The notes under the pieces were generated by a model. It did not search any database. It had not been told where the DNA came from and saw only the letters and a list, made by a program, of their open reading frames with translations. 64,000 nucleotides of DNA. It comes from Maribacter spongiicola (GTDB lineage: Bacteria > Bacteroidota > Bacteroidia > Flavobacteriales > Flavobacteriaceae). The stretch is taken from NCBI RefSeq assembly GCF_004364165.1, contig NZ_SOAY01000010.1, forward strand, positions 248,001 to 312,000. The letters run 5' to 3'. A program made the position numbers and the translations under genes. This document shows, piece by piece, positions 9,001-49,472 of this stretch; positions within the stretch are counted from its first letter, which is position 1; each line of letters begins with the position of its first letter.

Positions 9001-12000
9001 CGTATACTATCAATGTTTATGATGATAAAGGATGTTCTGGTAGCACAACGGAAACCATACTTCCTTTTGATGAGATTACTAATGCAGTTGCAAATGTTTC
9101 CAATACGGTTACTTGTGATCCAATTAGTGATGGAGAATTAACAGTAGTTGTAACTTCAACTTTAAGTGATGCTACTAAATTCGAGTATAGTATTGATAAT
9201 GGCGTAAACTACCAACCAACTAACGTTTTCGGCGGATTATCTGCGGGATCGTATACGATTCTTGTGAAGCATTTAGATACAGATTGTATCGTTTCTGCAA
9301 CACAAACTATAGATGAACCAAATACATTTACCATCGATGTTGTAAAAACAAGTGATGTTATTTGTTATGGCTCTGCAACAGGAGCAGTTAACTTTGAATT
9401 AGTTGATGCAACATACCCTGGCGGATTTACGTGGACTATTTATGACACTGAAGGCACACTAGCAGATATTGGTGATGATACCATTGTTATCTCTGGTACG
9501 GAAGCAACTACAAATGGTCCTACAGCAGACATCAGCTTAGAAGCCGGTAGTTACTATGTTTCTATAAGACAAGATAATAGTCCAGACTGTACAAATACAG
9601 AGGCATTTACTATAAACGGACCTACAGCTGATATCAGTGGTGATACTGTTGTAACTGAAATTACCTGTAACCCTGGTGATGATGGTTCAATTACAATCAC
9701 TGACGTAGTCGGTGGTTGGGGTGGCTATACATACTATGTAGGTGTAGGTATTCCTGCAACTACAGATTTTGTAGCTAACGCTACTTTCGATTCTTTACCA
9801 GCTGGTACATACCAAGCATGGGCTCGTGATGCAGAAGGTTGTGAGCGATTAATTCAAGATAATATTCTTCTTGAAGTTCCTGAGGATATTAATGCCGATT
9901 TACTTGTTACTGTAGAGAATTGTACAAACTTACAGGGAGAACTAACAGTTGATAACGTAGTTGGCGGACAAGGAAGTAATTATACATACCAATTGAGATT
10001 AAACGGTACTGATTTCCGTGCGCCACAAAACACGAGAGTATTCACAGGTCTTGGTGCTGGTAGTTATGACGTAACGATTATAGACCAATGGGGTTGTCCT
10101 TTTACAACTAATGCGGTGGTGCTTTATGAGCAAATGGATGTTTCTACGACAGTAGATAAGTCTATTGATTGTTCATCAATACCAGGTGGTGAAATTACGG
10201 TAAATGTAAATGGTGGTTCAACAAACCTTGAGTTTGAAATGACGACTCCATTAGGTAGTGTTGTAACGCAAACTACAGGCGTATTTACAAACTTAACCGA
10301 AGCAGGCACATACACATTTGAAGTAAGAGATTTAGATACAACGAATCCTGTTTGTGAAAGAACAGTGACTCAGACATTAGATGCGCCAGTAGACCCAGTG
10401 CTATTAGATGCAACTATAGTAAACGTAAGTTGTTTCGGTGGTACAGATGGTAGTATTAGAGCTAATATTGACCCGGCTACAAATACAAACCCTGAGTATC
10501 AGTATGAACTATATGATATGGCTGATTTGGTTACTCCGATAGCAACACAGACCAATCCGTTGTTCACAGGGTTGCCAGAAGGTGATTACCAAGTAAGAGT
10601 TATTTCTAGTAGAGGTTGTGAAGACATCAAGAATGAAACAATCACAGAACCATTAGAACTAACGGTTAGTGCAGTGGCGACAGAATTTAGTTGTGCAGCA
10701 GATAATAGTGTTAACACGGCAACGATAACGGCGACTGCTGGCGCAGGTACAGGTACCGCACCATATTTATACAGTATAGATAATATCATCTTCCAAGCAC
10801 AAAATACATTTAATGTTAGCGATACAGGAAGTGCACAAGCTATAGATGTATATGTAAAAGATGCCAAAGGTTGTACTACGTTCGATACGGTTACAATTCA
10901 ACCTATAAACACATTCACGGCGACTGTCGCTCAAGATGTAGCTATTAACTGTACTGTTGATGAAACAATAATAATTACTGTTGCTGATAATGGCTTGGCA
11001 CATAACTACGGTTATGAGTTGTTACCTATTGGTAATGCCACAGGTACATTGATCAGTACTACAGCAACTTCTGCAACGTACGATTTAAACACTGTTGGAT
11101 CTTATGTATTTAGAGTTACAGATTTAGATACGGGTTGTTATGTAAATACAGCTAGTTATACTGTTGCACCGTTCGACTTTATTACGGCAACTGCAACAGC
11201 AACAACTGCAGTAACTTGTTTTGGTGAACTTAATGGAAGCCTAGAAATTGATGTTGACGGATATATAGGAAACTATACTTACGAGGTATTTAATGCCGCA
11301 GGTACATCAGTTATTCCTGCGACAGCATCAGACACAAGCGTTAACCCAAGAACGGTAACAGGATTATCTGGTGGTACTTATTATGTTACAATTACAGAAA
11401 CCGATGTTCCTTTATGTTCTGAAAACACGAACAGAGTAACAATTGCTTCTCCTGACAGACCCTTAAGTGGAACTGTTTCAACGTTGGCTGAAGCTACTTG
11501 TACAGATGACCAAGGTGCTATAAGAGTTGAGGTTGAAGGCGGTTATAGACTTTATGATATTGTATTGACTAACACTACAACGGGTGATACATATACTATG
11601 GACGATGTTAGTGAAGGATTGTTTACTGGTTTAGCTTCAGGTGCTTATACGGTAAGTATTACCGATAATGCCGGATGTGTAGTAAACTATACTGAAACAT
11701 TGGCAGCAGCTACACCAATAGTGGCAAACGCAACTCCGCTTGTAACAGACTTAGCTTGTTATGGAGATAGGGGTGCCTTAGTCACTGCAAACGTAACTGG
11801 TGGCGGTAGTGGTAATTATGAATATCAATTGAATTATTATGATGCAACTGGCACTACGATTACCTCGACTACGGGAGCTCAAAATAATCCTAATTTCAGA
11901 GATTTAGGTGCAGGTTTCTATAGTGTTACCGTAGTTGACGGATGGAACTGTGATACCACAACGAATACCGTTGAGGTTAGAGAGCCAACTGAAGTACAGG

Positions 12001-13718: not shown

Positions 13719-13731
13719 AACTTAACCTAAA

Positions 13732-14685
13732 ATGATGATGCGGAACAGTCTTTTAACACTGGTATTATTTATAAGCGTACTTTCCCTAAAAGGACAAGAG
13801 CTTACGATACCTCAATTATCGCAATACCTTGCCGATAATCCCTTTGTAATGTCACCTACCTATGCAGGTATCGGCGACCACGTTAAAATAAGACTTAACG
13901 GACTTACCCAATGGGTTGGCATTAAAGATGCACCCGATACACAGTCTTTAGCAGCCGATATGCGTATTGGTGAAAAATCTGGTATTGGTATGTTATTGTA
14001 TAATGATAGTAATGGTGAAACCAAGCAACAGGGCGCTCGCTTTTCATTTGCGCATCACCTTACGTTAGATCGTTACGATGATGAGTTTTTATCATTCGGT
14101 ATCTCGTATAATTTTAACCAGTTTAGAATTGATAATACGAATCCTGATCTAATTGCAGATCCTGCGTATGTAGGCGATAAAGCGACTACAAACCATAACT
14201 TTGATATTGGGGCACTATACAGATATGACAAATTTTATTTCAGTATCAACGCTTCAAATGTTTTAGATAAAGATTTAAGTAATTTCAACGCTTTATACGA
14301 GCCAAATAGATTAAGAAACTATTACGTGTATACAGGTTACAGATACATGAAGAAAAGAACCAGCAAGATGGAAATAGAACCTTCTGTGTTGTTTCAATTG
14401 TTTGAAAGTGACGGGCGTTCTGTTACCGATTTAAACTTGAAATTCAGATTTTATGATTTTGAAGATTATTTTTACGCAGGTATTAATTATCGTTTCTTGA
14501 ATGATCAAATTGGTAATCCGCTTTATATCGCTCCTATCGCAGGTTTAAAGAAAAGTAATTTTTACTTCGGATATTCTTATCAAGTTATTCTTAACGAACT
14601 TCTTGGCTATAGTTCTGGTACGCATGTCATCACTCTAGGGGTAGATTTATTTCAAGGGATCAGTAATTGTCGTTGTACGTATTAA
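13732..14685 (+). CDS. sprF: PorP/SprF family type IX secretion outer-membrane protein
   Basis: A 317-residue protein with an N-terminal signal peptide (about 1-21, cleaved near LKGQ) followed by the family signature SQYLADNPFVMSPTYAG. The rest alternates aromatic beta strands, as expected for the PorP/SprF outer-membrane barrel. It begins 13 bases after the adhesin stop; three successive ATGs (13732, 13735, 13738) leave the exact start open. In F. johnsoniae SprF is needed to place SprB on the surface, and PorP/SprF proteins act as outer-membrane anchors for substrates with type B sorting domains. The pairing with the upstream giant gene implies a dedicated partner for that adhesin. Family assignment is firm; the sprF symbol rests on synteny. 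Confidence 0.85.
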   Translation: MMMRNSLLTLVLFISVLSLKGQELTIPQLSQYLADNPFVMSPTYAGIGDHVKIRLNGLTQWVGIKDAPDTQSLAADMRIGEKSGIGMLLYNDSNGETKQQGARFSFAHHLTLDRYDDEFLSFGISYNFNQFRIDNTNPDLIADPAYVGDKATTNHNFDIGALYRYDKFYFSINASNVLDKDLSNFNALYEPNRLRNYYVYTGYRYMKKRTSKMEIEPSVLFQLFESDGRSVTDLNLKFRFYDFEDYFYAGINYRFLNDQIGNPLYIAPIAGLKKSNFYFGYSYQVILNELLGYSSGTHVITLGVDLFQGISNCRCTY

Positions 14686-30562: not shown

Positions 30563-31606
30563 ATGAATATATTAATAACAGGAGGCGCGGGTTTTATTGG
30601 ATCTCATGTAGTTAGAAGGTTTGTAAAGAATTACCCAAATTATAATGTTTATAATCTTGATGCATTGACCTATGCTGGTAACCTTGAAAATTTAAAAGAT
30701 ATTGATGATTTGCCAAACTATAAATTCATTAAAGGAGATATTGTAGACGAAAGTTTTATTAATAAATTGTTTGTTGATGTAGATTTTGAAGGGGTAATTC
30801 ACTTAGCTGCAGAATCTCATGTAGATCGTTCTATTAAAGACCCTCTTGCTTTTGTAAGAACAAATATTATAGGTACTGTAAATCTTTTAAATGCTGCTAA
30901 AAATACATGGAAAGATAATTTCGAAGGAAAACGATTCTATCATGTAAGCACAGATGAAGTTTATGGTGCTTTGGGTGAAGAAGGCTTGTTTACAGAAACA
31001 ACATCATATGATCCAAATTCACCATACTCTGCTTCAAAAGCTGGTTCTGACCATTTTGTAAGAGCATATGGTGAGACATATGGTTTACCATATGTAATTA
31101 CCAATTGTTCTAATAACTATGGGCCATATCATTTTCCAGAAAAGCTTATTCCACTATTCATAAATAATATAATGGAAAATAAATCTCTTCCAGTTTATGG
31201 CGATGGTAAATATACTCGAGATTGGCTTTTTGTGGAAGATCATGCAAGAGCTATTGATTTAGTTTTTCATAAAGGTAAAAATCACGATACGTATAATATT
31301 GGAGGGTTTAATGAATGGCAGAATATTGATTTAGTAAAATTACTTTGTACAGTAATGGACAAAAAATTAAATAGACCCGAAGGTGAATCAGAGAAGTTAA
31401 TAACCTACGTAAAAGACAGACCTGGGCATGATTTAAGATATGCTATTGATGCTACTAAAGTTAATAAGGAGTTAGGTTGGAAACCTTCTGTGACTTTTGA
31501 AGAAGGTCTACAATTAACGGTAGATTGGTACTTTGATAATTCAGATTGGTTAAGTCATGTTACCTCTGGTGATTATAAAGAGTATTATAAAAAAATGTAT
31601 ACATAG
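30563..31606 (+). CDS. rfbB: dTDP-glucose 4,6-dehydratase
   Basis: A 347-residue extended SDR enzyme, second step of dTDP-L-rhamnose synthesis: dTDP-glucose to dTDP-4-keto-6-deoxyglucose with bound NAD. Seen: GGAGFIGSH (7-15), the catalytic motif HVSTDEVYG, YSASKAGSDH with catalytic Tyr and Lys, NCSNNYGPYHFPEKLIP and GKYTRDWLFVEDH. Length is standard. The four rfb genes (B, A, C, D) lie in one tight operon. Confidence 0.96.
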   Translation: MNILITGGAGFIGSHVVRRFVKNYPNYNVYNLDALTYAGNLENLKDIDDLPNYKFIKGDIVDESFINKLFVDVDFEGVIHLAAESHVDRSIKDPLAFVRTNIIGTVNLLNAAKNTWKDNFEGKRFYHVSTDEVYGALGEEGLFTETTSYDPNSPYSASKAGSDHFVRAYGETYGLPYVITNCSNNYGPYHFPEKLIPLFINNIMENKSLPVYGDGKYTRDWLFVEDHARAIDLVFHKGKNHDTYNIGGFNEWQNIDLVKLLCTVMDKKLNRPEGESEKLITYVKDRPGHDLRYAIDATKVNKELGWKPSVTFEEGLQLTVDWYFDNSDWLSHVTSGDYKEYYKKMYT

Positions 31607-31630
31607 TTTAACCATATCAAACCAAATAGT

Positions 31631-32500
31631 ATGAAAGGAATAATTTTGGCAGGAGGATCAGGAACTAGGCTTCACCCACTAACATTATCAGTTAGTAAAC
31701 AGTTAATGCCTATTTATGATAAACCGATGATTTATTATCCGCTATCAACTTTAATGTATGCTGGTATTAAAGAAATTTTAATAATATCTACGCCAAAAGA
31801 TTTACCACTTTTTGAAGATTTGCTTGGAGACGGCAAAAAATTTGGTTGCTCTTTTTCATATGCAGTTCAGGATGCTCCAAACGGACTGGCTGAAGCTTTT
31901 ATAATAGGTGCTGATTTTATTGGTAAAGAGAAAGTTGCCCTTGTATTAGGAGATAATATATTTTATGGTTCAGGATTAGCAAAACTACTTCAGAGCAATA
32001 ATGATCCAGTTGGGGGCATCATTTATGCTTATAGAGTTCATGATCCAGAAAGATATGGTGTTGTAGAATTTGATGAAAATGGCGTTGCAATTAGCATTGA
32101 AGAAAAACCCATTGAGCCAAGGTCTAATTTTGCGGTTCCGGGTATATACTTTTATGATAATAATGTAGTTGAAATAGCTGCCAACATAAAGCCTAGTCCA
32201 AGAGGTGAATTGGAAATTACAGACATAAATAAAGAATATTTAAATCAAGGAAAACTAAGCGTTAGTATCTTAGATAGAGGTACAGCTTGGTTAGATACAG
32301 GTACATTTCAGTCTTTAATGCAGGCTTCGCAATTTGTTGAGGTAATTGAAGAACGCCAAGGACTTAAGATTGGTGCAATTGAAGCTGCGGCTTATGAAAT
32401 GGGATATATTGATAAAAATCAGTTTAAAGCGCTGGCAGAACCTTTAATGAAGAGTGGTTACGGCAAAAATCTTCTAGGTATTTTAAATAAAAATCAATGA
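31631..32500 (+). CDS. rfbA: Glucose-1-phosphate thymidylyltransferase
   Basis: A 289-residue enzyme making dTDP-glucose from dTTP and glucose 1-phosphate, the first step to dTDP-L-rhamnose. The nucleotide loop [13 protein letters not shown] (6-18), [48 protein letters not shown] and the RGTAWLDTG motif are all present. Its TGA overlaps the rfbC ATG, so the genes are translationally coupled. Confidence 0.96.
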
Positions 32501-33042
32501 ATTTTATAGAGACTAAGTTAAAGGGTTGTTTTATTATAGAACCAACTTTATTTGCCGATGATAGAGGTTATTTCTTTGAATCGTTTAATGAAGAAAGATT
32601 TAATAAAGGCATTGGAACAAACGTTGAATTTGTTCAAGACAATCAATCATTTTCTCAGCACGGCGTTATAAGAGCAATTCATTATCAATTAGGAGAATAT
32701 GCACAAGCAAAATTAGTTAGGGTTTTACATGGAACTGTTATTGATGTAGCTGTTGATTTAAGAAAAAATTCTCCTACTTATGGACAACATGTAGCTATTG
32801 AATTAAGTGGTGAAAATAAAAGACAATTGTTTATTCCAAGAGGATTTGGGCATGGTTTCTCTGTAGTATCTGAAACGGCTGAATTTTTCTATAAATGTGA
32901 TAATTACTATAATAAAGAATCTGAAGGTGGAATCATTTTTAACGATCCAACTTTGGAGATAGATTGGAAAGTAGATTCGGATCAAATTAAAGTATCTGAA
33001 AAGGATTTAATCTTGCCAACTTTAAATAAGGCTAGATTATGA
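32497..33042 (+). CDS. rfbC: dTDP-4-dehydrorhamnose 3,5-epimerase
   Basis: A 181-residue cupin-fold enzyme, third step of dTDP-L-rhamnose synthesis. Characteristic segments are [28 protein letters not shown] (catalytic His), [29 protein letters not shown] and YKCDNYY. Overlaps rfbA by 4 bases at its start and rfbD by 4 bases at its end. Confidence 0.96.
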
Positions 33043-33893
33043 AAAATATCCTTGTAACGGGAGGTAATGGACAACTAGCTACCTGTCTTAAAGAAGTAAG
33101 CGAGGAGCAAGGTGATTTAAATTTTCTTTTTGTTAGTTCTAAGCAATTAGATATAACAGATTATAATGCAGTTAATGATTTTTTTAACAAGAATGATATC
33201 TCTTATTGCATTAACTGTGCAGCCTATACAGCGGTTGATAAAGCAGAAACTGATGAGGCTAATGCAACTAAAGTTAACGTAGATGGTGCTAGAAACCTTT
33301 CTAAAGTTTGTAGTTTATTTAATACGATATTAATACATATCTCAACAGATTTTGTTTTTGACGGGGAGAAAACTTCTTTGTATTCTGAAGAAGATAAGGA
33401 AACCCCTATCTGTGTTTACGGGCAAACTAAGCTTAAAGGTGAAATTGCTATAGCCGAATCTTGGGAGAAACATATAATAATTAGAACTTCATGGCTATAT
33501 TCAGAGTATGGTAATAATTTTTTAAAAACTATGCTTAGATTAGGTTCAGAAAGAGACAAGTTAGGTGTAGTCGTTGATCAAATTGGTACACCGACCTACG
33601 CGGTAGATTTGGCAAAAGTTATAGTTGCTTTTATAGATAAAGAGAGTATCGATTTTGGCACTTTTCACTTTAGTAATGAAGGTGTTGCTAGTTGGTATGA
33701 TTTTGCTAAATCTATTTTTGATATTAGTAAAACTAAGGTTGAGTTAGCACCTATTAAATCGGAGGCTTATCCTACACCAGCGAAAAGACCATCTTTTAGC
33801 GTTATGGACAAATCTAAAATCAAAAATGAGTTAGATATAACAATACCTTACTGGAGAGATAGTTTAAAAATTGCTTTGAAAAACTTAAGTTAA
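33039..33893 (+). CDS. rfbD: dTDP-4-dehydrorhamnose reductase
   Basis: A 284-residue SDR enzyme that reduces the 4-keto intermediate to dTDP-L-rhamnose with NAD(P)H. It has GGNGQLA (8-14), NCAAYTAVDKAE, STDFVFDG, the YGQTKLKGE motif with catalytic Tyr/Lys, and RTSWLYSEYGNNF. The ATG overlaps the rfbC stop. It completes the rhamnose pathway within the operon. Confidence 0.95.
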   Translation: MKNILVTGGNGQLATCLKEVSEEQGDLNFLFVSSKQLDITDYNAVNDFFNKNDISYCINCAAYTAVDKAETDEANATKVNVDGARNLSKVCSLFNTILIHISTDFVFDGEKTSLYSEEDKETPICVYGQTKLKGEIAIAESWEKHIIIRTSWLYSEYGNNFLKTMLRLGSERDKLGVVVDQIGTPTYAVDLAKVIVAFIDKESIDFGTFHFSNEGVASWYDFAKSIFDISKTKVELAPIKSEAYPTPAKRPSFSVMDKSKIKNELDITIPYWRDSLKIALKNLS

Positions 33894-33904
33894 TATATTT
33901 TATA

Positions 33905-35455
33905 ATGACAAATAAACCTTTATTACTTGATTGTACTTTACGAGATGGCGGGTATTATACAAATTGGGATTTTGATGAAAATTTGGTTGAAGACTATTGT
34001 AGAACAATGGAAAATCTCCCTATTGAGTATGTAGAGGTGGGTTATAGAAGTATACCATTAAAAGGTTATTTAGGTGAGTATTTTTATTGCCCAGAATATG
34101 TTTTAAAAAGGCTGAAAAAATTAATGCCATCAAAAAAACTGGTGATTATTTTAAATGAAAAGGATATAAGAGCAACTCATGTAGGCGAATTGTTAGGTCC
34201 ATGCAAGGATTATATTAAACTGGTACGTCTAGCAATAGACCCATCCAATTTCGAACGAGCTATAGTTTTAGCAAAAGCCATTAAGAAAATGGGGTTTGAA
34301 GTTGGTTTTAATGTAATGTACATGTCTAATTGGAAGGAAAATTCAACTTTCCTTGATTTATTGGAAGGTTTGGAAGATACTATTGATTATTTCTATATGG
34401 TAGATTCATTTGGAGGAATTTTTCCAAAGGATGTTATAGAAATAATAAATTTAGTAAAAAGCAAAACTAAATGTGCATTAGGTTTTCATGGACATAATAA
34501 TTTAGAAATGGCAATGGCAAATACCTTAACCGCAATAGATCATGGTTGTAGTATTGTAGATGCTACAATAACCGGCATGGGAAGGGGTGCGGGAAATTTG
34601 AGAACCGAGTTGTTTTTAACCTATTTAGACAGTCAGAGAATTACAAAAATTCAATATAATAATTTGAGTGTCGTAGTTTCAAAATTTGAAAAGTTAAAAG
34701 CCCAATTTTTATGGGGTACAAGTTTGCCGTATATGTTTTCTGGTGCTAATTCTTTACCTCAAAAACAAGTCATGGAGTGGGTGGGAATGAATAGATACCC
34801 TATTAGCAGTATAGTAAATGCGCTTAATAATCAAAAAGATTCTTTAAAAGATAATTTTAGGCTACCTGTTTTGCAAAAAGAAAAAAAATATAATAAAGCT
34901 ATAATTTTAGGAGGAGGCAAAACTGTAAGGAATAATAGTACGGCTATAAAAAAACTTGTAAAGCAAAACAACGATTTATGTTTGGTGCACGCAGGAGCTA
35001 GAAATGTTGGTGAATATTTAGACGTTTCGTGTGAACAGTTTTATGCTCTTGTGGGCTTTGAAAGTGAAAAATTACTAGAAAAGGTTAAAGACTTTGGTAA
35101 TTTATCTCAAACGTGTGTTTATCCGCCATATCCTAGAGCAATGGGTACAATTGTGCCAAATGAAATTATTAATCTCTCTAAAGAATTATCAGCAGTTGAT
35201 TTCACTAAAATTTCATCAGATTCACCATTGGCATTAGCAATACAAATTGCATTAGATAAAGGTGTAAAAGAAATATTTTTTGCTGGCTTTGATGGCTATG
35301 AGGCATCCATAAACCATAATCAATATTTAGTGTCTCAAGAAAATCAAAAAATATTCGATGACGTGTTGAGTTATAAAAATATTGTGGTTACTTGTATAAC
35401 GCCAACAAAATATGAACATATGAATGTAATTTCAGTTTTTAGTTTAATTAAATGA
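33905..35455 (+). CDS. DRE-TIM aldolase (HMGL-like) fused to a second C-terminal domain
   Basis: A 516-residue two-part protein. Residues 1 to about 250 are a DRE-TIM metallolyase/aldolase: DCTLRDGG (9-16) with catalytic Arg 13 and metal Asp 14, GFHGHNN with metal ligands H195 and H197, and GMGRGAGNLRTE. This resembles 4-hydroxy-2-oxovalerate aldolase. Residues about 330-516 (AIILGGGKTVRNN, CLVHAGARN, KEIFFAGFDGY) look like a Rossmann-type domain reminiscent of DUF115/MptE-like proteins. The gene lies between rfbD and a CMP-KDO-synthetase-like gene whose ATG overlaps its stop, so it probably makes or breaks a C-C bond in an acidic sugar later activated with CMP. The exact reaction is not known to me. 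Confidence 0.72.
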   Translation: MTNKPLLLDCTLRDGGYYTNWDFDENLVEDYCRTMENLPIEYVEVGYRSIPLKGYLGEYFYCPEYVLKRLKKLMPSKKLVIILNEKDIRATHVGELLGPCKDYIKLVRLAIDPSNFERAIVLAKAIKKMGFEVGFNVMYMSNWKENSTFLDLLEGLEDTIDYFYMVDSFGGIFPKDVIEIINLVKSKTKCALGFHGHNNLEMAMANTLTAIDHGCSIVDATITGMGRGAGNLRTELFLTYLDSQRITKIQYNNLSVVVSKFEKLKAQFLWGTSLPYMFSGANSLPQKQVMEWVGMNRYPISSIVNALNNQKDSLKDNFRLPVLQKEKKYNKAIILGGGKTVRNNSTAIKKLVKQNNDLCLVHAGARNVGEYLDVSCEQFYALVGFESEKLLEKVKDFGNLSQTCVYPPYPRAMGTIVPNEIINLSKELSAVDFTKISSDSPLALAIQIALDKGVKEIFFAGFDGYEASINHNQYLVSQENQKIFDDVLSYKNIVVTCITPTKYEHMNVISVFSLIK

Positions 35456-36189
35456 GAAAAATTGGAATTATTCCTGCTCGCTATAAATCGACTCGATTTC
35501 CTGGAAAACCATTAGTACTAATTAATGGAACTCCTATGATTCTGTTAGTTGCTAAAATTGTAGAAAAGGCTTTAGGTCATGAAAACACATATATAGCAAC
35601 CGAAGATGACAGAATTAAGGACGTTGTAACCTCTGCAGGTTATAAGGTGATAATGACTACAGATAATTGCTTAACAGGCACTGACAGAGTTTGGGAGGCT
35701 GCTCAGCAAGTAGAAGCTGATATTTATTTAAATATACAAGGGGATGAACCTTTGTTAAACCCAGATGATATAAATTTAATAGCTTCTCAGAAAGAAAAAT
35801 ACTTTAATTATGTCATTAACGGTATGTGTATATTGGGTGATGGTGAATTACCAACTAATCCTAATATACCCAAAGTTCTGACAAATAAAAACCAGGACTT
35901 ATTATATATGTCCCGATTACCAATTCCGGGTATAAAAGGTATAAAAGACCAAAAACCTTTATATAAAAAGCAGGTGTGTATTTATGCCTTTAGTTATAAC
36001 GATTTAAAATTATTTGGAGAATCAAAAAAGAAAGCTGAGTTCGAATATTTTGAAGACATTGAAATTTTACGTTTTTTTGATTTAAATGTACCTATAAAAA
36101 TGATTGAAACCTCTGGTAGCTCCGCTGCAGTAGATGAACCTTCCGATGTTTTAAAAATAGAACAAGCAATCAATAATATGGCTCAATAA
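35452..36189 (+). CDS. CMP-KDO-synthetase-like cytidylyltransferase
   Basis: A 245-residue cytoplasmic nucleotidyltransferase of the KdsB family: GIIPARYKSTRFPGKPL (5-21) binds CTP, and TGTDR (75-79) and NIQGDEP (94-100) with Asp 98 are the metal and sugar-site motifs. KdsB activates KDO as CMP-KDO. Because it sits in a polysaccharide locus and is coupled by a 4-base overlap to the aldolase-fusion gene, it more likely activates a different ulosonic acid for the surface glycan than serves core LPS. I therefore give no kdsB symbol. Confidence 0.82.
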   Translation: MRKIGIIPARYKSTRFPGKPLVLINGTPMILLVAKIVEKALGHENTYIATEDDRIKDVVTSAGYKVIMTTDNCLTGTDRVWEAAQQVEADIYLNIQGDEPLLNPDDINLIASQKEKYFNYVINGMCILGDGELPTNPNIPKVLTNKNQDLLYMSRLPIPGIKGIKDQKPLYKKQVCIYAFSYNDLKLFGESKKKAEFEYFEDIEILRFFDLNVPIKMIETSGSSAAVDEPSDVLKIEQAINNMAQ

Positions 36190-36208
36190 GAGTATTAATT
36201 AATACTCT
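36189..36208. terminator. 20-bp perfect palindrome between convergent genes
   Basis: The arms AGAGTATTAA/TTAATACTCT meet without a loop directly at the stop of the cytidylyltransferase gene and 11 bases from the stop of the minus-strand GT2. Position suggests a two-way terminator, but there is no T-run, so efficiency is doubtful. Confidence 0.4.
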
Positions 36209-36218
36209 AAATTAAACA

Positions 36219-36914
36219 TTACATTAGCAAATTCTTTAAATTTTGTAATCTATAATAAATTACTGCAAAAACAGAAAGCAGAACACCATAGTTTTTTTTC
36301 ACAATTTTTAATGACTGCTGTTCATCGAAAACCGCACTAACTCCACCAGGTAAAGCATAAGACAAGAATACATCATCATATATGAACGTGAAATTTTGTT
36401 TATATAATCTTTGATTAAAATCAAAATCTGCATATAGATTAAATTGTTCATCAAAGGGAGAGATAGGGTGAAGACTTTTTTTCACTAACAATGCTTGATG
36501 ATGCAATGTATTCCCTAATTTTAACCTAAATCCTATTTTTGAATTAAATATGGTATTCTCATTTAAGATAACTCTACCATAAATTATGTCAGCTTTTGTA
36601 AATTTATCATCTGAAGGAAGCTCTTTTAATTGATCACCAACGCCTAAATAAAGTATAAAACTATTAGAATCAGCCAGATTCCAACCTTTATTGAAAGCAT
36701 CATAAATACCTTCATCTTTTTCACTAATAAACCGATGTAATTTACTCTTGTACTTACTTATTATTTCAACAGTTTTATCCTGACTAGCACCGTCTATAAT
36801 AATGAGGTCTATTTTTTTTTTTTGGTTCAAAACACTTTTAATAGTATTCTCAATATATTCCTCCCCGTTAAAAACGGCTATAATAATTGTAATCTTAATA
36901 TTTTGGTTTTCCAT
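36219..36914 (-). CDS. Family 2 glycosyltransferase
   Basis: The ATG at 36914 is preferred over a TTG at 36929. The 231-residue protein has the GT-A start KITIIIAVFNGEEYIENTIK, IIIDGASQDKTVEI and SEKDEGIYDAFNKG, where the acidic pair stands in for the DXD nucleotide-sugar site. The C-terminal half is short with hydrophobic stretches. It probably adds one sugar of the repeat unit at the cytoplasmic face; donor and acceptor are unknown. It is the last gene of the reversed block transcribed from about 40343. Confidence 0.85.
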   Translation of the reverse strand: MENQNIKITIIIAVFNGEEYIENTIKSVLNQKKKIDLIIIDGASQDKTVEIISKYKSKLHRFISEKDEGIYDAFNKGWNLADSNSFILYLGVGDQLKELPSDDKFTKADIIYGRVILNENTIFNSKIGFRLKLGNTLHHQALLVKKSLHPISPFDEQFNLYADFDFNQRLYKQNFTFIYDDVFLSYALPGGVSAVFDEQQSLKIVKKNYGVLLSVFAVIYYRLQNLKNLLM

Positions 36915-36976
36915 TTTATCTTTTGTCAATTAACATAAAAGCTGGTTTAATAGCTAATATCATAATTTATATTTTC

Positions 36977-38236
36977 TTATAAATTTTCATTTATAATATT
37001 ATAATTATCAATACCTAGACCTAGAATGTATTTAAGGCGTTCGTCTGCTTGGTTAAAGTATTTAGATAGTTTTTCTTTTTGGTTAAATGGAATCGCCTTA
37101 AAAACTTCTTCAAGTTGATTTAGGTCTTCAAAATTGTCATTAAAAACATGTAAACTATCTTCAAAAGTACCATCATTAAATCTTTTACAGGGTAAATAGT
37201 TTAAGTAAGCCTCATAATATGCTGCCGTATTTATTGCAATAGCCCAACCAAAATTATTCTTTTTAAACATATTTGTTAATGTATATTTTTCTTCAATTAA
37301 CTCCCAACCAAGTGAATTACATAAAGTATTATATTCTTGCCAATTTAAAGTCGGGTGAAGTTTGATACTTATTTTTACGTCATTTTCTATAGAAAATTTT
37401 TTCAATATTTTTATTAATTTGACGTTAGAATGCTCATAGGTATACCGTGCGAGAAGAACTAAACATTTATGTTTATCTAATGTAGCGGGAGGACTTTTTC
37501 TAATTAAATTTCTAGGATAACCAGCTAAAATTAAAGAATCTTTCTTAATACCATAATCCTTAAATTCATCAATACTATATTCTCCCCAGCATAATTGTTT
37601 GTCAGATAAAAAATTTTCAAATAAAATAGCATCTAATGGAATATGTTTTTTAAAAACATAATAAATACCATGTTGTAATGAATATGTTGGTATTTTTTTC
37701 TTTTTAAAATAAAAAGTGATGATAGCTTCTAAATGGTGTACACCACTAAATGCGATGTAGTTTTTAAAAGTGGGTCTTTTGTCTTCTAGTTTATCTATTG
37801 TGTTTAGATAATATGACAATTGACTAGCTAAAAATAGTTTTGATTTTAGTGATAGGTCAGTATTCTTAAAAATATGTTTACATGCTAAAATTAAATTAGA
37901 AATTTTTATATGTGGAATAGGTTTTATTTTGCTCAAATCAAATAATACAGATTTGATAGTTTTAGAACGTACATAATTTAGGATTTCGTAATAGTCTTTT
38001 CTATGATATCTTCCTATAGAAAAAAGCGTCTGATCGGGGTTTTGATTAGCAATTAAATTGATATTAATTGCTAAAAAGAAATATCGTAAAGTTTTAATTT
38101 TGAGAGGAGGATCTACGTAAATTTCTGATATTAAATCCATCGCTAAAATTTTATCTAGCTCATAGCCATTAAAATTATATTTAAGTTGGGACTTGTTTTT
38201 TCTATACCGCTCAAAAAAAAGTTTATTTTCCGCCAA
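36977..38236 (-). CDS. Putative GT-B-type polysaccharide glycosyltransferase (QHG motif)
   Basis: A 419-residue soluble protein I do not recognise with certainty. It has TYSLQHGIYY (Q188-H189-G190), CWGEYSIDEF and LAGYPRN, followed by SIKLHPTLNW. A QHG then a G-P/N turn then KLHP is seen in capsule transferases of the polysialyl-, CDP-glycerol- and KDO-transferase type. A role in transferring the CMP-activated sugar predicted nearby is an inference. The frame opens at a TTG at 38236 and its next Met is residue 33, so the start is non-ATG or misplaced. It overlaps the flippase gene by 14 bases. Confidence 0.55.
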   Translation of the reverse strand: MAENKLFFERYRKNKSQLKYNFNGYELDKILAMDLISEIYVDPPLKIKTLRYFFLAININLIANQNPDQTLFSIGRYHRKDYYEILNYVRSKTIKSVLFDLSKIKPIPHIKISNLILACKHIFKNTDLSLKSKLFLASQLSYYLNTIDKLEDKRPTFKNYIAFSGVHHLEAIITFYFKKKKIPTYSLQHGIYYVFKKHIPLDAILFENFLSDKQLCWGEYSIDEFKDYGIKKDSLILAGYPRNLIRKSPPATLDKHKCLVLLARYTYEHSNVKLIKILKKFSIENDVKISIKLHPTLNWQEYNTLCNSLGWELIEEKYTLTNMFKKNNFGWAIAINTAAYYEAYLNYLPCKRFNDGTFEDSLHVFNDNFEDLNQLEEVFKAIPFNQKEKLSKYFNQADERLKYILGLGIDNYNIINENL

Positions 38237-39674
38237 TTTTTTTTATTCTATTTATTATTTTGTTTATATCAAAGATGCTTTTGTCAGCAGCAAAAGTCAA
38301 AATTATAATGTAAAATGGTACAGCTGCAATAAATGAATACCATTTATTTAAATTATAATGATTCATTAAATATAAAATAATTAAGGCTAGAGCGGTTGAC
38401 AGCAATAAAATTTTGAAATAGAAACGAAATGGGAAATATTCTAAAAAGTTAACTGAAATTTGTTTTTTTAATAGATATATTGGTAAAAAATAACCTAAAT
38501 AAGTGGATGCTAAAGTAGCATAGACAGCGCCGAAATTACCATATTTTGGTATAAGAATTAAATTTAAAATAATGTTTAAAATTAAATTAATGATTGTATT
38601 TAAAAGAACCCATTTCTGAAGTCCGATGGCATTCATTACTGCTGAAAAAGCAATTACAGTTAATAAATAGCTGGCAGTATATATTTGAAATATATACCCA
38701 GAATCCTTGTAGTTTTCTGTGTATAGTGTGGTAATTAGGTGGGGACCTAGTATAATACAATAAATTAATATGGGTACTAAAAAAAGCGAGGTTTTTATAG
38801 TAGCATTTCTTAATTGGTTTTTTATTTCGCTGATATTACCTTCAGATTTTAATTTTGCTAAAGCCGGTATCAAGGCTGTTACAACTGATCCAGTAATTAT
38901 TCCTATGAATGGAATTGAAAAAGCTCCTACTTGGTATTCAGCAAAACTCTCAGGATTTAAAATTGAGGAAATCATAAATTTATCCGTGTAAAGAGTAAGA
39001 AGAGAAGCCATTGATATTGCTATCATTGGTAAGATATATTCAAACTCCTTTTTTGATAAAATTATTGGACCTTTAATTTTGAATACCAATAAAGAATTAG
39101 ATCCGAATACTATTAATTTAGTCAATGAAATTAAAATCAACCCGGTTAAGATATCTTTTATCTGCAGGTTAAATCGAGAAATGGCTGTAATTAAAACAAT
39201 AGTTAGTATAAACTCAGTGATTATCACAAAGAAATAAAACTGGAGTTTCCCCCTAGTTAAACAATATTGTAAATAGTATGAATTAATTATTTTTAAGGTA
39301 AGAAGTCCACAAAATAGAATAGAGTATTCTCTAAAATAATTATTTTTAAAAAAATCAGCTAGAATGGGGTTAAATAAAAATATAATCCCTCCTAAAGCTA
39401 GGGAAAGGAAAAACATAGACCACCAAAAACGCTTATAAATTTGAATACGAGAGGTATAATCTAGGTATGTTCCAAAAAAATAAGACAAACCCATAGGAAT
39501 GCCAGATGAGAAAGAGACTAAAAAATTTATTATAATAAATAGCTGTTGATATTTTCCAAATATTTCTTTTTCTTCAAAAAACCTAGCTAAATAAATACTT
39601 AATACAAGCCCTAGTCCAACCTGTAATGAGTTGGACGCAACTAGGTAAATTGTATTATGACGTATAGACTTCAA
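38223..39674 (-). CDS. Wzx-type oligosaccharide flippase
   Basis: A 483-residue, strongly hydrophobic protein with about 12-14 membrane spans and polysaccharide-transporter features: an N-terminal ASNSLQVGLGLVLSIYLARF, a central VGAFSIPFIGIITGSVVTAL and a C-terminal GNFGAVYATLASTYLGYFL. It should move undecaprenyl-linked repeat units across the inner membrane. The only plausible start is TTG (39674); no ATG occurs for about 60 codons. The preceding HAD gene ends in TAG in the same frame 15 codons upstream. Confidence 0.85.
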   Translation of the reverse strand: MKSIRHNTIYLVASNSLQVGLGLVLSIYLARFFEEKEIFGKYQQLFIIINFLVSFSSGIPMGLSYFFGTYLDYTSRIQIYKRFWWSMFFLSLALGGIIFLFNPILADFFKNNYFREYSILFCGLLTLKIINSYYLQYCLTRGKLQFYFFVIITEFILTIVLITAISRFNLQIKDILTGLILISLTKLIVFGSNSLLVFKIKGPIILSKKEFEYILPMIAISMASLLTLYTDKFMISSILNPESFAEYQVGAFSIPFIGIITGSVVTALIPALAKLKSEGNISEIKNQLRNATIKTSLFLVPILIYCIILGPHLITTLYTENYKDSGYIFQIYTASYLLTVIAFSAVMNAIGLQKWVLLNTIINLILNIILNLILIPKYGNFGAVYATLASTYLGYFLPIYLLKKQISVNFLEYFPFRFYFKILLLSTALALIILYLMNHYNLNKWYSFIAAVPFYIIILTFAADKSIFDINKIINRIKKIGGK

Positions 39675-39719
39675 AAGATTATGAGAAGAGATTAAATTAG
39701 TGGTTAAAAGACCTATTAG

Positions 39720-40343
39720 CTACCTTAATTGATGCTCATCAAAGCTCTCAATATATTCTCTAGATTGCTCCATTAATTTGGTGTTGTTATACCCATAGAA
39801 TTCTATTGAGTTAACTTTTGCTGCTTCATAATCATTAATAGAATCGCCAATTAATATAGTTTCTTCTTTTTTATACCCAAAGTCTTTTAAAACAGTGAAT
39901 ACCAATTTATTCTTTGCAATAGGAGATCCGTTAATAGTTATAAAATAAGAGTCTAATTTTAATTCTTTACATAAAAATCGCAATTCATTTTCATCTGATC
40001 CAGAAACAATATGAAAATTAAAATTCGTATGATTGTTTTCAATAAATTTTAATGAATCGTCAATTAAATGTTCTGGTTTAATTAATTCTTCTCTCATAAT
40101 ATTAGAAAACTTATTAGCCAATGCCAGAACCTCTTTTTCGCTAATATTTTGTCCTAAAATTTCTTCATAAAAATATCTGATTTTTACATATCTAGACCAA
40201 CCACCATTGGTTCTATGGTACTTTATAAGCTTTTCAACTTGTTCATGTGTATGTTCTTCAAATATTTTTCTAAAGCCATAATCTCTTACTTGCATAGAGT
40301 CTAGAATAACACCATCAAAATCCCATAAAATGTTCTTTATCAT
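39720..40343 (-). CDS. HAD-superfamily phosphatase
   Basis: A 207-residue cytoplasmic hydrolase. The nucleophile motif ILWDFDGVILDS gives D8 and D10, a helical cap follows (about 18-80), then motif II HIVSGSD and motif IV ILIGDSINDYEAA. The layout is that of phosphoglycolate-phosphatase-like enzymes. In this locus it is a good candidate for removing phosphate from the sugar acid made by the aldolase-fusion enzyme before CMP activation, as KdsC does in KDO synthesis; that link is inferred. It is the first gene of the minus-strand block. Confidence 0.8.
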   Translation of the reverse strand: MIKNILWDFDGVILDSMQVRDYGFRKIFEEHTHEQVEKLIKYHRTNGGWSRYVKIRYFYEEILGQNISEKEVLALANKFSNIMREELIKPEHLIDDSLKFIENNHTNFNFHIVSGSDENELRFLCKELKLDSYFITINGSPIAKNKLVFTVLKDFGYKKEETILIGDSINDYEAAKVNSIEFYGYNNTKLMEQSREYIESFDEHQLR

Positions 40344-46325: not shown

Positions 46326-47744
46326 ATGGTTTTTAGTTCTTTTGTCTTCCTTTTTATTTTTTTGCCATCAGTTCTTATTATAAACTTCTTATTGAAACAA
46401 GAATATCGTAATTTCTTTCTTCTAATTGCGAGTTTAGGGTTTTATGCTTGGGGAGAAGGTATTTTACTATTATTAATGCTTTTTTCTATTGCAATTAATT
46501 ATATTTCTGGTTTAGGTATTAATTACTTTATTAACAAAAGTATTTTAGGTTCTAAAGTCTTTTTAGGATTGGCTATAGCAATTAACTTAGGTTTATTACT
46601 TTATTATAAATACGCTAATTTTATAGTCGAAATCTTACAAGATTTTGGATTTTATTTAGAATATGATCATCAAAATATTTTATTGCCAATAGGTATATCC
46701 TTTTTTACTTTCCAAGGTATTTCTTATCTAGTAGATGTAGCAAGACAAGAAACTTCTGTTCAAAAAAATGTTTTTCATTTAGGACTATATATATCTTTTT
46801 TTCCACAATTAATTGCAGGACCAATTATTAGATATCATGATGTTGCTCTTGAGATAAAAGAAAGAACAACTAATATTGACCTTTTTACTAGTGGGGTAAT
46901 TAGATTTATAAGGGGTCTTGCTAAAAAAGTTATAATTGCAAATAATGCTGCTCTAATTGCAGATCAAGCATTTTCAATACCAATGGATAGTATTTCGCAA
47001 TCCTCTGCATGGATAGGGATCATATGTTATTCAATTCAAATTTATTTTGATTTTTCTGGTTATTCAGATATGGCAATAGGACTTGGTAAAATGCTAGGGT
47101 TTAATTTTAAAGAAAATTTTAATTATCCATATATTTCAAAGTCAATTCAAGATTTTTGGAGACGATGGCATATTTCACTTTCTACTTGGTTTCGTGATTA
47201 TTTATATATTCCTTTAGGTGGTAATCGTAAAAGTAGTTGGAGAACTTACTTTAATTTGTTTTTGGTTTTTTTTGTTACTGGTTTATGGCATGGAGCAAGT
47301 TGGAATTTTATCTTTTGGGGTCTTTTTCATGGGTTTTTTCTGATTTTAGAACGTAGTAAGATTTTAAAAACACAAAATTGGCCAATTTTTCTACAACACC
47401 TCTATGTAATTTTAATAGTTATAATAGGTTGGGTGTTTTTTAGAGCAGAAACAATGCTTGACGGGTTTAGCTATCTAAAAACCATGTTAGGTGTTAGTAA
47501 TGGTGATAATAGTATCATATTTCTTTACATCAACAATTATTCAGTATTAATAATTTTGCTCGCGTTTATATTTTCTACACCAATTAGAAGGATATTTAAT
47601 GAAAAAATAATGAATACAGATTACGGTTTAATAAAGGTCTTTTACCTAACAGGTACTAAATTATTTTATTTAGCACTATTGCTTTTTTCAATCGTTGAAT
47701 TGGCGCAATCTGGCTATAATCCATTTATATATTTTAGATTTTAA
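46326..47744 (+). CDS. AlgI-like MBOAT O-acetyltransferase
   Basis: A 472-residue multi-span membrane protein of the MBOAT family. Signatures are LPIGISFFTFQ (120-130), YFDFSGYSDMAIGLG, DFWRRWHISLSTWFRDY (276-292), IPLGGNRKS and GLWHGASWNF with the catalytic His 322. AlgI-type proteins pass acetyl groups from cytoplasmic acetyl-CoA across the membrane to a periplasmic acetyltransferase; the next gene, 3 bases on, encodes such a partner. Together they should O-acetylate the exported glycan. Confidence 0.92.
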   Translation: MVFSSFVFLFIFLPSVLIINFLLKQEYRNFFLLIASLGFYAWGEGILLLLMLFSIAINYISGLGINYFINKSILGSKVFLGLAIAINLGLLLYYKYANFIVEILQDFGFYLEYDHQNILLPIGISFFTFQGISYLVDVARQETSVQKNVFHLGLYISFFPQLIAGPIIRYHDVALEIKERTTNIDLFTSGVIRFIRGLAKKVIIANNAALIADQAFSIPMDSISQSSAWIGIICYSIQIYFDFSGYSDMAIGLGKMLGFNFKENFNYPYISKSIQDFWRRWHISLSTWFRDYLYIPLGGNRKSSWRTYFNLFLVFFVTGLWHGASWNFIFWGLFHGFFLILERSKILKTQNWPIFLQHLYVILIVIIGWVFFRAETMLDGFSYLKTMLGVSNGDNSIIFLYINNYSVLIILLAFIFSTPIRRIFNEKIMNTDYGLIKVFYLTGTKLFYLALLLFSIVELAQSGYNPFIYFRF

Positions 47745-47747
47745 TTT

Positions 47748-49472
47748 ATGGATAAATATAATCGATATCGTAATATTTGGATTATCACTCTTGCATGTAT
47801 AGCAACATTTATTGCTGGTAATTATTTAACTAATTTGAATGATACTTTTCTTGGTCAAATTGATGTAATTTTTAAGGCAAAAATTCCAAAAAATGATACT
47901 TTTCAACTTTTTTATCAGCAAGGCAGTACTAACGAATTTACAATTGCTAATTCTGTTAAAACTGATATTATAGGAAGTGTAGATATTCAAGATGTTATTT
48001 TTAAATTACCTAAAATAGACAACTTAAAAAATCTTCGATTAGATATTGGTGAAAATTTTAAACAGGAACAGATAGAAATTTACTCTATTAAATTTATTAT
48101 TGAAGGCAGAGAATTGTTTTACAATATCGATGAATTTAATATGCTATTTTCACCAAATAAATATATTGAGATTAATAACGAATCTACTTTTACAGGAAAA
48201 GAGGCTGTTTTGGCAGGTAATAGAAAAATTTATGACCCAGGATTTTATGTAAATTTAGATTCAGCTGGGTTTGAAAAACTTAAAATAAAACGTTTTACTA
48301 ATTATCCTTTTACTATTTCTGCTTTTATTTTTTTAGTAGTTTCTTGTTTTTTTATTGTAAATGTTCAAACGACTAAAGTTAAGATTAACACGTTATTTCT
48401 AGCAGTGTTCTTTGTATTATTAATTTTGCCTTCAGTACAAATTAAATACAAAATAATAGACCCATTAAAAAGTTTAGAAAAAAGAGAGCTCGCTAAAAAA
48501 CCTAAGTTTAGTTTTTCCACAGAATTTGCTAGAGATTATGAAACATATTTAAGTGACAATTTTGGTTTTAGAAATCATTTGGTTAATTGGGGAAGTAACT
48601 TAAAGACAAAATTTTTTAGGTCTTCAACATACCCGGAATTGGTTATTTTTGGTAAAGAAAAGTGGCTGTATTATACTAGAGTAAAAGGTAGAATTTATCG
48701 TAGTTATTCCCGAACTAATCTTTTGCAAAAAGATACATTAAAATTGATTGTTAATAAATGGGAAAGCAACAAAAAGAAATTTGAATCGAAAGGGATAAAA
48801 TATGTTCTAGGGTTTTGGCCAAATAAACATACTATTTATCCAGAGTATTTATCCAATTCTGCAAATATGCAGATTAAAGATACAATTTCTAGAATAGATC
48901 AAATTGTAGATTATATTGACCGAACAAACGCTACAGTTAAATTAACAGATGTACGTAAAAGCTTACTTAAAGAAAAAAAGAAGAATTTACTTTACCATAA
49001 GTATGATACTCATTGGAATAGTTATGGGGCCTTCGTTGCTTATCAAGAGTTCTTTAAACAAAACAAGAATGATTTAGGAATAACGGCCATGGGTTTAGAT
49101 GAGTTTAATGTTCAGTGGCAAGATTATTATCAAGGCGAGCTTATTTCAATGTTAGGAATTAACAACGGAGGATTTTTTGTAGAAAAAAACCCTGTTTTTA
49201 ATTTGAAGGAAAATCCAAATCAGATAGAATATTTGACTACCGAAGGTTACCCTAAATTAACCGTTATTACAAAAAACTATTTGGCAAATAACAACTTGAG
49301 AGTCTTAGTGTTTAGAGATTCTTTTACTACTAATCTTATTCCTTTTTTTTCATTACATTTTAGAGAAGTATATTATATATGGGGGTTTAAAGAAGAATTT
49401 GTTGATCAGCTTAAGCCAGATATCATTATAGATGGTTTTGTAGAAAGAGAAGTCGGCGAGTATATTAGATAA
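47748..49472 (+). CDS. AlgJ/AlgX-like periplasmic O-acetyltransferase with extra N-terminal domain
   Basis: A 574-residue protein. A span (about 10-28) leads to a beta-rich extracytoplasmic domain (about 34-135, RLDIGEN at 97-103), then two hydrophobic spans (about 188-205 and 214-232). An SGNH-like AlgX domain follows: DNFGFRNHLVNW (270-281), YDTHWNSYGA with catalytic Asp 420 and His 422, and FRDSFT with Ser 525. It should transfer acetyl from the AlgI-like partner to the polysaccharide. The N-terminal domain is shared with the ligase/polymerase-family protein at 41780-43516 and is unusual for AlgJ/AlgX proteins. Confidence 0.85.
   Translation: MDKYNRYRNIWIITLACIATFIAGNYLTNLNDTFLGQIDVIFKAKIPKNDTFQLFYQQGSTNEFTIANSVKTDIIGSVDIQDVIFKLPKIDNLKNLRLDIGENFKQEQIEIYSIKFIIEGRELFYNIDEFNMLFSPNKYIEINNESTFTGKEAVLAGNRKIYDPGFYVNLDSAGFEKLKIKRFTNYPFTISAFIFLVVSCFFIVNVQTTKVKINTLFLAVFFVLLILPSVQIKYKIIDPLKSLEKRELAKKPKFSFSTEFARDYETYLSDNFGFRNHLVNWGSNLKTKFFRSSTYPELVIFGKEKWLYYTRVKGRIYRSYSRTNLLQKDTLKLIVNKWESNKKKFESKGIKYVLGFWPNKHTIYPEYLSNSANMQIKDTISRIDQIVDYIDRTNATVKLTDVRKSLLKEKKKNLLYHKYDTHWNSYGAFVAYQEFFKQNKNDLGITAMGLDEFNVQWQDYYQGELISMLGINNGGFFVEKNPVFNLKENPNQIEYLTTEGYPKLTVITKNYLANNNLRVLVFRDSFTTNLIPFFSLHFREVYYIWGFKEEFVDQLKPDIIIDGFVEREVGEYIR

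Follow-up and report, generated by a model that had tools for sequence, protein, structure and literature searches.

A gene for an aldolase fusion protein, located in a 64,000-nucleotide stretch of the Maribacter spongiicola genome, probably opens a dedicated pathway to a sugar activated with cytidine monophosphate (CMP). The stretch, referred to here as the window (G000:C1:248001–312000, in a genome of 4.46 Mb), carries this gene directly before one for a KdsB-like cytidylyltransferase. The likely product of the route is a CMP-activated ulosonic (2-keto-3-deoxy) acid for a surface glycan of an O-antigen- or capsule-type cluster. In the proposed scheme, the DRE-TIM domain of the fusion would join pyruvate to a phosphorylated aldose, and a HAD phosphatase would then strip the phosphate from the resulting ulosonic acid phosphate. 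The KdsB-like enzyme, or a NeuA/PseF-like enzyme at other loci, would couple the acid to CMP, and a transferase, in the window most likely a QHG-motif protein, would move the activated acid onto the glycan. A reversible aldolase could be pulled forward by the dephosphorylation and by the consumption of cytidine triphosphate (CTP).

The aldolase fusion (33905–35455, forward strand; 516 residues, defined by its open reading frame and Pfam) consists of an N-terminal DRE-TIM (HMGL-like) barrel, approximately residues 1–310, and a C-terminal MptE/DUF115-like domain, approximately residues 325–516. Residues 7–246 match PF00682 with 85.7 bits (cut-off 29), and the domain has the features of a DRE-TIM metallolyase, namely the PF00682 barrel fold together with an Asp and an HxH motif, from which metal binding can be predicted. 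R13, D14, Y17, H195 and H197 are invariant in all 49 aligned members of the family, and R13, D14, H195 and H197 line up with the R-D and HxH motifs of 4-hydroxy-2-oxovalerate (HOA) aldolases. By analogy with DmpG, the Asp and the two His are presumably the metal ligands. The closest solved structure by sequence is PDB 3dxi (E 3e-106), the N-terminal domain of the putative aldolase BVU_2661 from Bacteroides vulgatus; it belongs to the same family, is described by a structure only and is titled putative. HOA aldolases come next. Similarly, an AlphaFold model of the fusion built from the 49-member alignment (mean predicted local distance difference test score 93.4) is matched by Foldseek to 3dxi (E 5.4e-36) and to HOA aldolases. 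The HOA aldolases use pyruvate, and the DRE-TIM domain is predicted to be metal-dependent and is probably pyruvate-using as well. While it shares its fold and its R-D and HxH motifs with the HOA aldolases DmpG and BphI, the protein differs from them in its extra MptE-like domain, and it falls far below the equivalog cut-off for 4-hydroxy-2-oxovalerate aldolase (TIGR03217; 90.7 bits versus 286).

The stop codon of the fusion gene overlaps the start codon of the next gene in an ATGA at 35452. This second gene (35452–36189, forward strand; 245 residues, identified by Pfam and NCBIfam) encodes a predicted KdsB-like CMP-ulosonate synthetase. Its product belongs to the cytidylyltransferase superfamily (PF02348; 133.8 bits, cut-off 22.6) and passes the subfamily models NF009905 (257.9 versus 255) and NF003952 (211.6 versus 193), but remains below the cut-off of the KdsB equivalog TIGR00466 (117.9 versus 155.2). 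An initial annotation of this locus had proposed a DRE-TIM fusion translationally coupled to a KdsB-like gene, and both family assignments and the overlap bear this out. It had also stated that the locus lacks a 3-deoxy-D-manno-octulosonate (KDO) 8-phosphate synthase or NeuB-like enzyme, and genome-wide profile searches agree, finding no KdsA or NeuB inside the locus. The KDO set of this genome lies elsewhere: KdsA at C1:1255456, outside the window, and KdsC (TIGR01670) at C2:528054 are above their cut-offs, as is the housekeeping KdsB at C9:55448 (190.3 bits, over 155.2). NeuB (PF03102) has no match in the whole genome.

KdsB-like proteins linked to the aldolase form a group of their own. In a tree, 32 linked proteins are split from 30 housekeeping KdsB proteins by one branch, with a Shimodaira–Hasegawa-like approximate likelihood ratio support of 92 (not starred). 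Moreover, housekeeping KdsB shows 55 conserved columns, 18 of which were flagged as differing in the linked proteins. The cleanest changes, in window numbering, include H to Q at 174 (31/32), G to C at 176 (30/32) and Q to I at 205 (28/32), positions at which housekeeping KdsB has H in 30/30, G in 30/30 and Q in 26/30. Other clean changes are A to L at 150 (29/32), F to M at 153 (28/32) and K in place of R at 162 (30/32). R10, R15, K19, D98, R155 and R207 are retained in 32/32 linked proteins; all of these except R155 are also reported for 30/30 housekeeping enzymes, and we take those five to be CTP-site residues. The His and Gln at positions 174 and 205 we likewise presume to be KDO contacts in E. 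coli KdsB. The portion of one publication seen (PMC3149649) contains nothing on the residues at 174 and 205. Because the linked enzymes differ from housekeeping KdsB in both residues and tree position, one would not expect plain KDO to be their substrate, and the changes suggest that the activated sugar is probably not KDO. A simple duplication of the KDO pathway was rejected on these differences and on the separate location of KdsA, KdsB and KdsC.

The association of these genes recurs widely. A scan of genome contigs yielded 73 loci with related aldolases, which with two from relatives made 75 for analysis. Partners were detected with hidden Markov models (HMMs) that by construction find only KdsB- and NeuA-like cytidylyltransferases, and final counts used length-restricted HMMs, as the NeuA-like cluster was slightly impure (e.g., a 386-residue member in locus L082). 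Within 5 kb of the aldolase, a KdsB- or NeuA/PseF-like cytidylyltransferase is present in 72 of the 75 loci, a homologue of the window HAD in 63 and both in 61. The three loci lacking a cytidylyltransferase are L099; L078, whose gene is cut off by the end of the contig; and L105, which matches only the N-terminal part of the fusion. Within 1.5 kb, and with L105 dropped, the counts are 70/74 and 53/74; each partner was found in 0 of 31 control loci. These controls, with flanks of about 1.5 kb, surround more distant PF00682-type genes (4 from this genome and 27 weak matches in related genomes). Some redundancy exists within the 75 loci, the aldolases of L007 and L042 being identical and L090 and L092 near-identical. 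Both partners were also present at all five further loci (L128, L130, L133, L135 and L136) from four genomes outside the survey set. Since neither partner occurs in the controls, the grouping of aldolase, cytidylyltransferase and HAD is not due to chance, and a chance neighbourhood was rejected on that count. The initial annotation had suggested such a survey, which found family members mainly in the company of their partners.

The aldolase set is an accessory gene set. A close copy of the aldolase is present in only one of 35 same-genus relatives searched (G013, identical to the L042 aldolase), and matches at E≤1e-40 occur in 9 of 395 genomes across the phylum, the source genome included. The trio also occurs on a plasmid. 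Three Leisingera plasmids were matched; the one from which gene order was taken carries an aldolase 25% identical to that of the window, an annotated KdsB and a HAD gene in a row, with GDP-fucose genes nearby and a QHG-like gene (80.8 bits).

Two kinds of cytidylyltransferase accompany the aldolase. Their distribution was followed on a 79-row aldolase tree, made by removing L105, L078 and the duplicates L129, L131, L132 and L134 and adding the window and the five new loci. The nearest partner is NeuA/PseF-like in 46 rows, KdsB-like in 32 and absent in 1; two NeuA-like proteins were scanned against family profiles (PF02348). On this quick tree, which has some long branches, partner type changes 21 times, of which starred branches require at least 13, compared with 25.0 changes for shuffled labels, and 27 of 500 shuffles gave values as low as 21. 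Transferases near the two kinds can be closely similar: MptE/GT42-like proteins are 58%–61% identical across loci with both kinds, and polysialyltransferase (polyST)-like proteins 57%–61%, while GT29 proteins occur with the NeuA kind only (7/7). As similar transferases stand alongside both, the two kinds look exchangeable around the same core. Both KdsB-like and NeuA/PseF-like enzymes activate 2-keto-3-deoxy acids, and either both kinds activate the same acid here or the core serves several acids.

In the window, the remaining candidate genes form a block on the opposite strand. After the rml genes, the fusion and the KdsB-like gene on the forward strand come, all on the reverse strand, a GT2-family glycosyltransferase (36219–36929; PF00535, 61.3 bits), which is the last gene of the inverted block; the QHG-motif protein (36977–38236), a candidate ulosonate transferase; a Wzx/MurJ-like flippase identified by Pfam (38223–39674); and a HAD-IA phosphatase (39720–40343; HAD_2, 60.3 bits, cut-off 23.8), the candidate for dephosphorylation. 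The adjacent reversed block with a HAD and a QHG-motif gene that the initial annotation had described is thus present. In two other loci, L107 and L052, rml-type genes, aldolase, cytidylyltransferase, HAD, Wzx and QHG genes all lie on a single strand, with the rml-like genes upstream of the aldolase in the same order as in the window. A BNR lipoprotein gene intervenes between the KdsB-like gene and HAD in L107, and the cytidylyltransferase of L052 is of the NeuA-like kind. The window flippase falls in the same cluster (c19) as the flippases that follow HAD in L052, L059 and L107. The HAD–Wzx–QHG segment of the window is best read, from gene order, as an inversion of this one-strand arrangement.

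Candidates for the transferase step differ between loci. Neither Pfam (E≤0.001) nor NCBIfam (E≤0.01) contains a family that matches the window QHG protein, and its homologue in L052 matches the BFO_1060 glycosyltransferase family NF046086 weakly (39.6 bits, cut-off 200). Its model has a GT-B fold, with the polysialyltransferase 5wcn at rank 17 amid mostly UDP-sugar enzymes. The QHG protein is the most likely candidate for the ulosonate transferase in the window. Across the survey, sialyltransferase-related or QHG genes lie within 10 kb of the aldolase in 34 of the 75 loci (polyST 13, QHG 8, MptE/GT42-like 7 and GT29 6). These cluster names derive from one scanned representative each, those of polyST (PF07388, 37.5 bits) and GT29 (PF00777, 46.0 bits) being above cut-off, and from 69 scanned downstream proteins of the 120 listed. 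Among the 69, which come from loci without those transferases, PF07388 is joint-commonest (7) and MptE-like proteins occur three times.

These features define how far known pathways serve as a model. The initial annotation had seen a route analogous to that of KDO (KdsA, KdsC, KdsB and WaaA) with another aldolase class. Given the partner survey, the partner kinds and the sialyltransferase-related neighbours, the analogy stands as pathway logic (condensation, dephosphorylation, CMP activation and transfer) and extends to the PF02348 KdsB-like enzyme. However, the locus has a DRE-TIM aldolase instead of KdsA, which uses phosphoenolpyruvate (PEP), and the phosphatase is not KdsC-like: the window HAD is of the HAD-IA type, and at E≤0.01 TIGR01670 does not match it. 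The KdsB-like group has changed residues, and a separate KdsA, KdsB and KdsC are encoded elsewhere in the genome. Pathways to sialic, pseudaminic and legionaminic acids (NeuB/PseI, NeuA/PseF and a sialyltransferase) likewise resemble the proposed route in the CMP-activated ulosonic acid, the NeuA/PseF-like partner of many rows and the polyST and GT29 relatives nearby. Unlike them, the route in this genome has no NeuB match, and NeuB is found in the flanks of a minority of loci only.

The C-terminal domain is a remote relative of MptE/DUF115. The fusion to such a domain, as first annotated, holds insofar as the domain is present; the label is remote only, the window domain scoring 15.1 bits against a PF01973 gathering score of 34.6 (E 0.021). 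Of 41 family C-terminal domains, 25 match PF01973 at E≤1, the best at 7.4e-8. A profile search against PDB sequences returned 13 non-significant matches (E 0.19–0.98), comprising 3 GT42 sialyltransferases, 1 MptE and 9 unrelated proteins, and alignment with GT42-like proteins by hhalign was weak (probability 21.5). The PDB fold search with the whole fusion was uninformative on this domain, barrel proteins making up the 50 matches listed. Among the matches listed from a viral structure library, MptE-like proteins stand at ranks 2, 21, 22, 41 and 45; E falls below 0.001 for rank 2 alone, and that match superposes poorly (TMq 0.27). A separate neighbour protein in L102 is clearly MptE-like (47.2 bits). 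The likeness to MptE/Maf (DUF115) proteins and GT42 sialyltransferases is thus weak, at family level and below curated cut-offs, and the domain may bind a nucleotide or a CMP-sugar.

Variations on the trio give some indication of the product. Immediately upstream of the aldolase in L007, L042 and L086 lies a NeuB/PseI-type synthase gene, and each of these loci may therefore yield two ulosonic acids. In L086, where NeuB adjoins the aldolase, a HAD of the KdsC/2-keto-3-deoxynononic acid (KDN)-9-phosphatase type lies 3.1 kb from the aldolase in place of the usual HAD. In two loci without HAD, a PfkB kinase gene directly follows the NeuA-like gene (L083:12240–13268 and L103:9549–10583), and both kinases are closest to 2-keto-3-deoxygluconate (KDG) kinase families, below their cut-offs. 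BNR_2 lipoprotein genes lie in or beside the trio in L059 (12357–13520), L107 (12294–13313) and L093 (12876–14129). BNR repeats occur in sialidases, and these lipoproteins are possibly hydrolases for the same sugar. Most trio-associated genes point to a 2-keto-3-deoxy sugar acid, and those of L086 may serve another ulosonate. Additionally, a gene for an HpcH/HpaI aldolase (PF03328) directly follows the fusion in L008, L044, L054, L061, L073, L090, L092, L130 and L135, all nine with a NeuA-like partner; genome G169 carries two such sets (L130 and L135) about 20 kb apart, each with HpcH/HpaI, NeuA-like and HAD genes.

Several observations weigh against the proposed route. In the aldolase itself, the invariant Tyr17 (49/49 members) stands in place of the catalytic His that follows R-D-G-S in the HOA aldolase 1nvm; the acid-base chemistry is probably different as a result, and the reaction may differ from that of HOA aldolases. 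The loci counted in the survey are also those on which its HMMs were trained. No HAD lies within 5 kb in 12 of the 75 loci (L008 and L078 being cut short), and the window HAD is 4.3 kb from the fusion and on the opposite strand, a distance read as an inversion and not as a missing link because L107 and L052 hold the same kinds of gene on one strand. With respect to transfer, the QHG model gives a generic GT-B answer only, QHG proteins paired across the two partner kinds are at most 38% identical, and the representative of the MptE/GT42-like transferases scores 19.1 bits, under the Pfam cut-off of 34.6, so that their GT42 label is a reading. Furthermore, 9 of the 79 tree rows have an HpcH/HpaI pyruvate aldolase no more than 300 bases from the fusion, and 11 of the 75 loci have NeuB in the flanks fetched, where it could supply a ulosonate. 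Finally, seven relatives that have only the N-terminal part (L105, L167–L170, L172 and L173) exist without a cytidylyltransferase in the fetched stretches, as does the Salmonella HOA aldolase L171. In the Streptomyces loci L105 and L170, the same HAD family adjoins the aldolase (86.7 and 76.1 bits) within a shared set of a flavin adenine dinucleotide (FAD) oxidoreductase, a DHDPS-family aldolase, the DRE-TIM aldolase without a C-terminal domain, the HAD and two SDRs, which looks like a cluster for some small molecule. Aldolase and HAD may hence be a wider pair, and in these few loci the C-terminal domain appears to accompany CMP activation.

Some of these points suit an alternative in which a CMP-ulosonic acid is made but its skeleton comes from elsewhere, either from housekeeping KdsA and KDO or from a second pyruvate aldolase, while the DRE-TIM domain performs another job such as retro-aldol cleavage, the supply of an aldehyde precursor or the attachment of a second three-carbon unit. 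The change of the catalytic base from His to an invariant Tyr would fit such a role, as would the adjoining HpcH/HpaI genes, the DHDPS-family aldolases of the two Streptomyces loci and the NeuB genes in some flanks. Nevertheless, 63 of the 75 loci have neither a NeuB-like gene (11 loci) nor a KdsA-like gene (1 locus, L106, at its far end) in the fetched flanks, which reach up to 10 kb a side (about 1.5 kb only for L007 and L008), and plain KDO is not expected from KdsB-like enzymes that are unlike housekeeping KdsB. This alternative is unlikely.

Two further explanations deserve less credence. 2-Phosphonomethylmalate is the product of a DRE-TIM enzyme, and the CMP-activated compound could be another small acid, such as a phosphonate or a phospho-compound, for which KdsB/NeuA-like enzymes were recruited. 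Phosphonate biosynthesis includes nucleotidyl activation, as described in the part of PMC6697681 seen. Yet the partners are KdsB- and NeuA/PseF-like, some of the transferases fall in sialyltransferase families, and no PEP mutase family is among the families listed for the scanned flanking proteins (for the downstream set, 25 of 61 families), making this explanation improbable. It is harder still to credit that the aldolase is part of some unrelated catabolism and stands here by chance, after the fashion of operons for HOA aldolase and acetaldehyde dehydrogenase. HOA aldolases are the named proteins closest in sequence, relatives with only the N-terminal part turn up in different surroundings (e.g., in Priestia), and a true HOA aldolase operon on a Salmonella contig also matches; against this stand the partners found in nearly all surveyed loci and in none of the controls. 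HOA-type catabolism was rejected, as Pfam finds no acetaldehyde dehydrogenase partner beside the aldolase in the window and the survey contradicts it.

Other genes of the window place the proposed route in context. The dTDP-rhamnose (rml) genes (30563–33893, forward strand) include an RmlB-type dehydratase and RmlD (33039–33893), both identified by Pfam, as well as RmlA (31631–32500) and RmlC (32497–33042), named by reading their translations. RmlD ends 11 bases before the fusion on the same strand, and the rml genes and the fusion are possibly on a common transcript. A scan for promoters and terminators was uninformative (45 promoter-like sites versus 48.0 expected; 2 terminator-like versus 2.6). 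Farther downstream (46326–49472), an MBOAT O-acyltransferase gene adjoins one for an AlgX-type SGNH protein, which suggests O-acylation of the same glycan. At the other end of the window, a 4527-residue SprB-repeat protein with a type IX secretion signal (135–14685) is followed by a PorP/SprF protein, a pair of the gliding-adhesin type.

The dedicated ulosonic route may be part of something broader. To our knowledge, the ulosonic acids with known biosynthesis (KDO, sialic, pseudaminic and legionaminic acids and KDN) are all built in vivo by PEP-using synthases. There is about an even chance that the present genes constitute a second, PEP-independent route: a mobile cassette, common among Bacteroidota and present in other phyla, in which the fusion of a DRE-TIM pyruvate aldolase with a CMP-sugar-recognizing MptE/GT42-like domain leads to an undescribed CMP-ulosonic acid, with two CMP-synthetase lineages and several transferase families exchanged around the core. 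In the open-licence literature, which mostly leaves subscription journals outside its scope, no description of this aldolase family, of 3dxi or of such a pathway was among the matches listed, and of the papers listed for the names of 3dxi in full texts, none concerns this protein by title. Where plasmid-borne members carry an annotation, it reads "aldolase catalytic domain-containing protein" or hypothetical protein. The kind of pathway is known; new, as far as seen, are its class of synthase, the fusion and the swapping of CMP synthetases. If the proposal is correct, the ulosonic type of sugar would have been invented separately through a different aldolase class, and 3dxi, deposited as a putative aldolase, would gain a function. 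Chemists would gain a new enzyme that forms carbon–carbon bonds. Moreover, a new acidic sugar would be predicted in many marine and gut Bacteroidota, for which the trio of aldolase, cytidylyltransferase and HAD would serve as a genomic marker.

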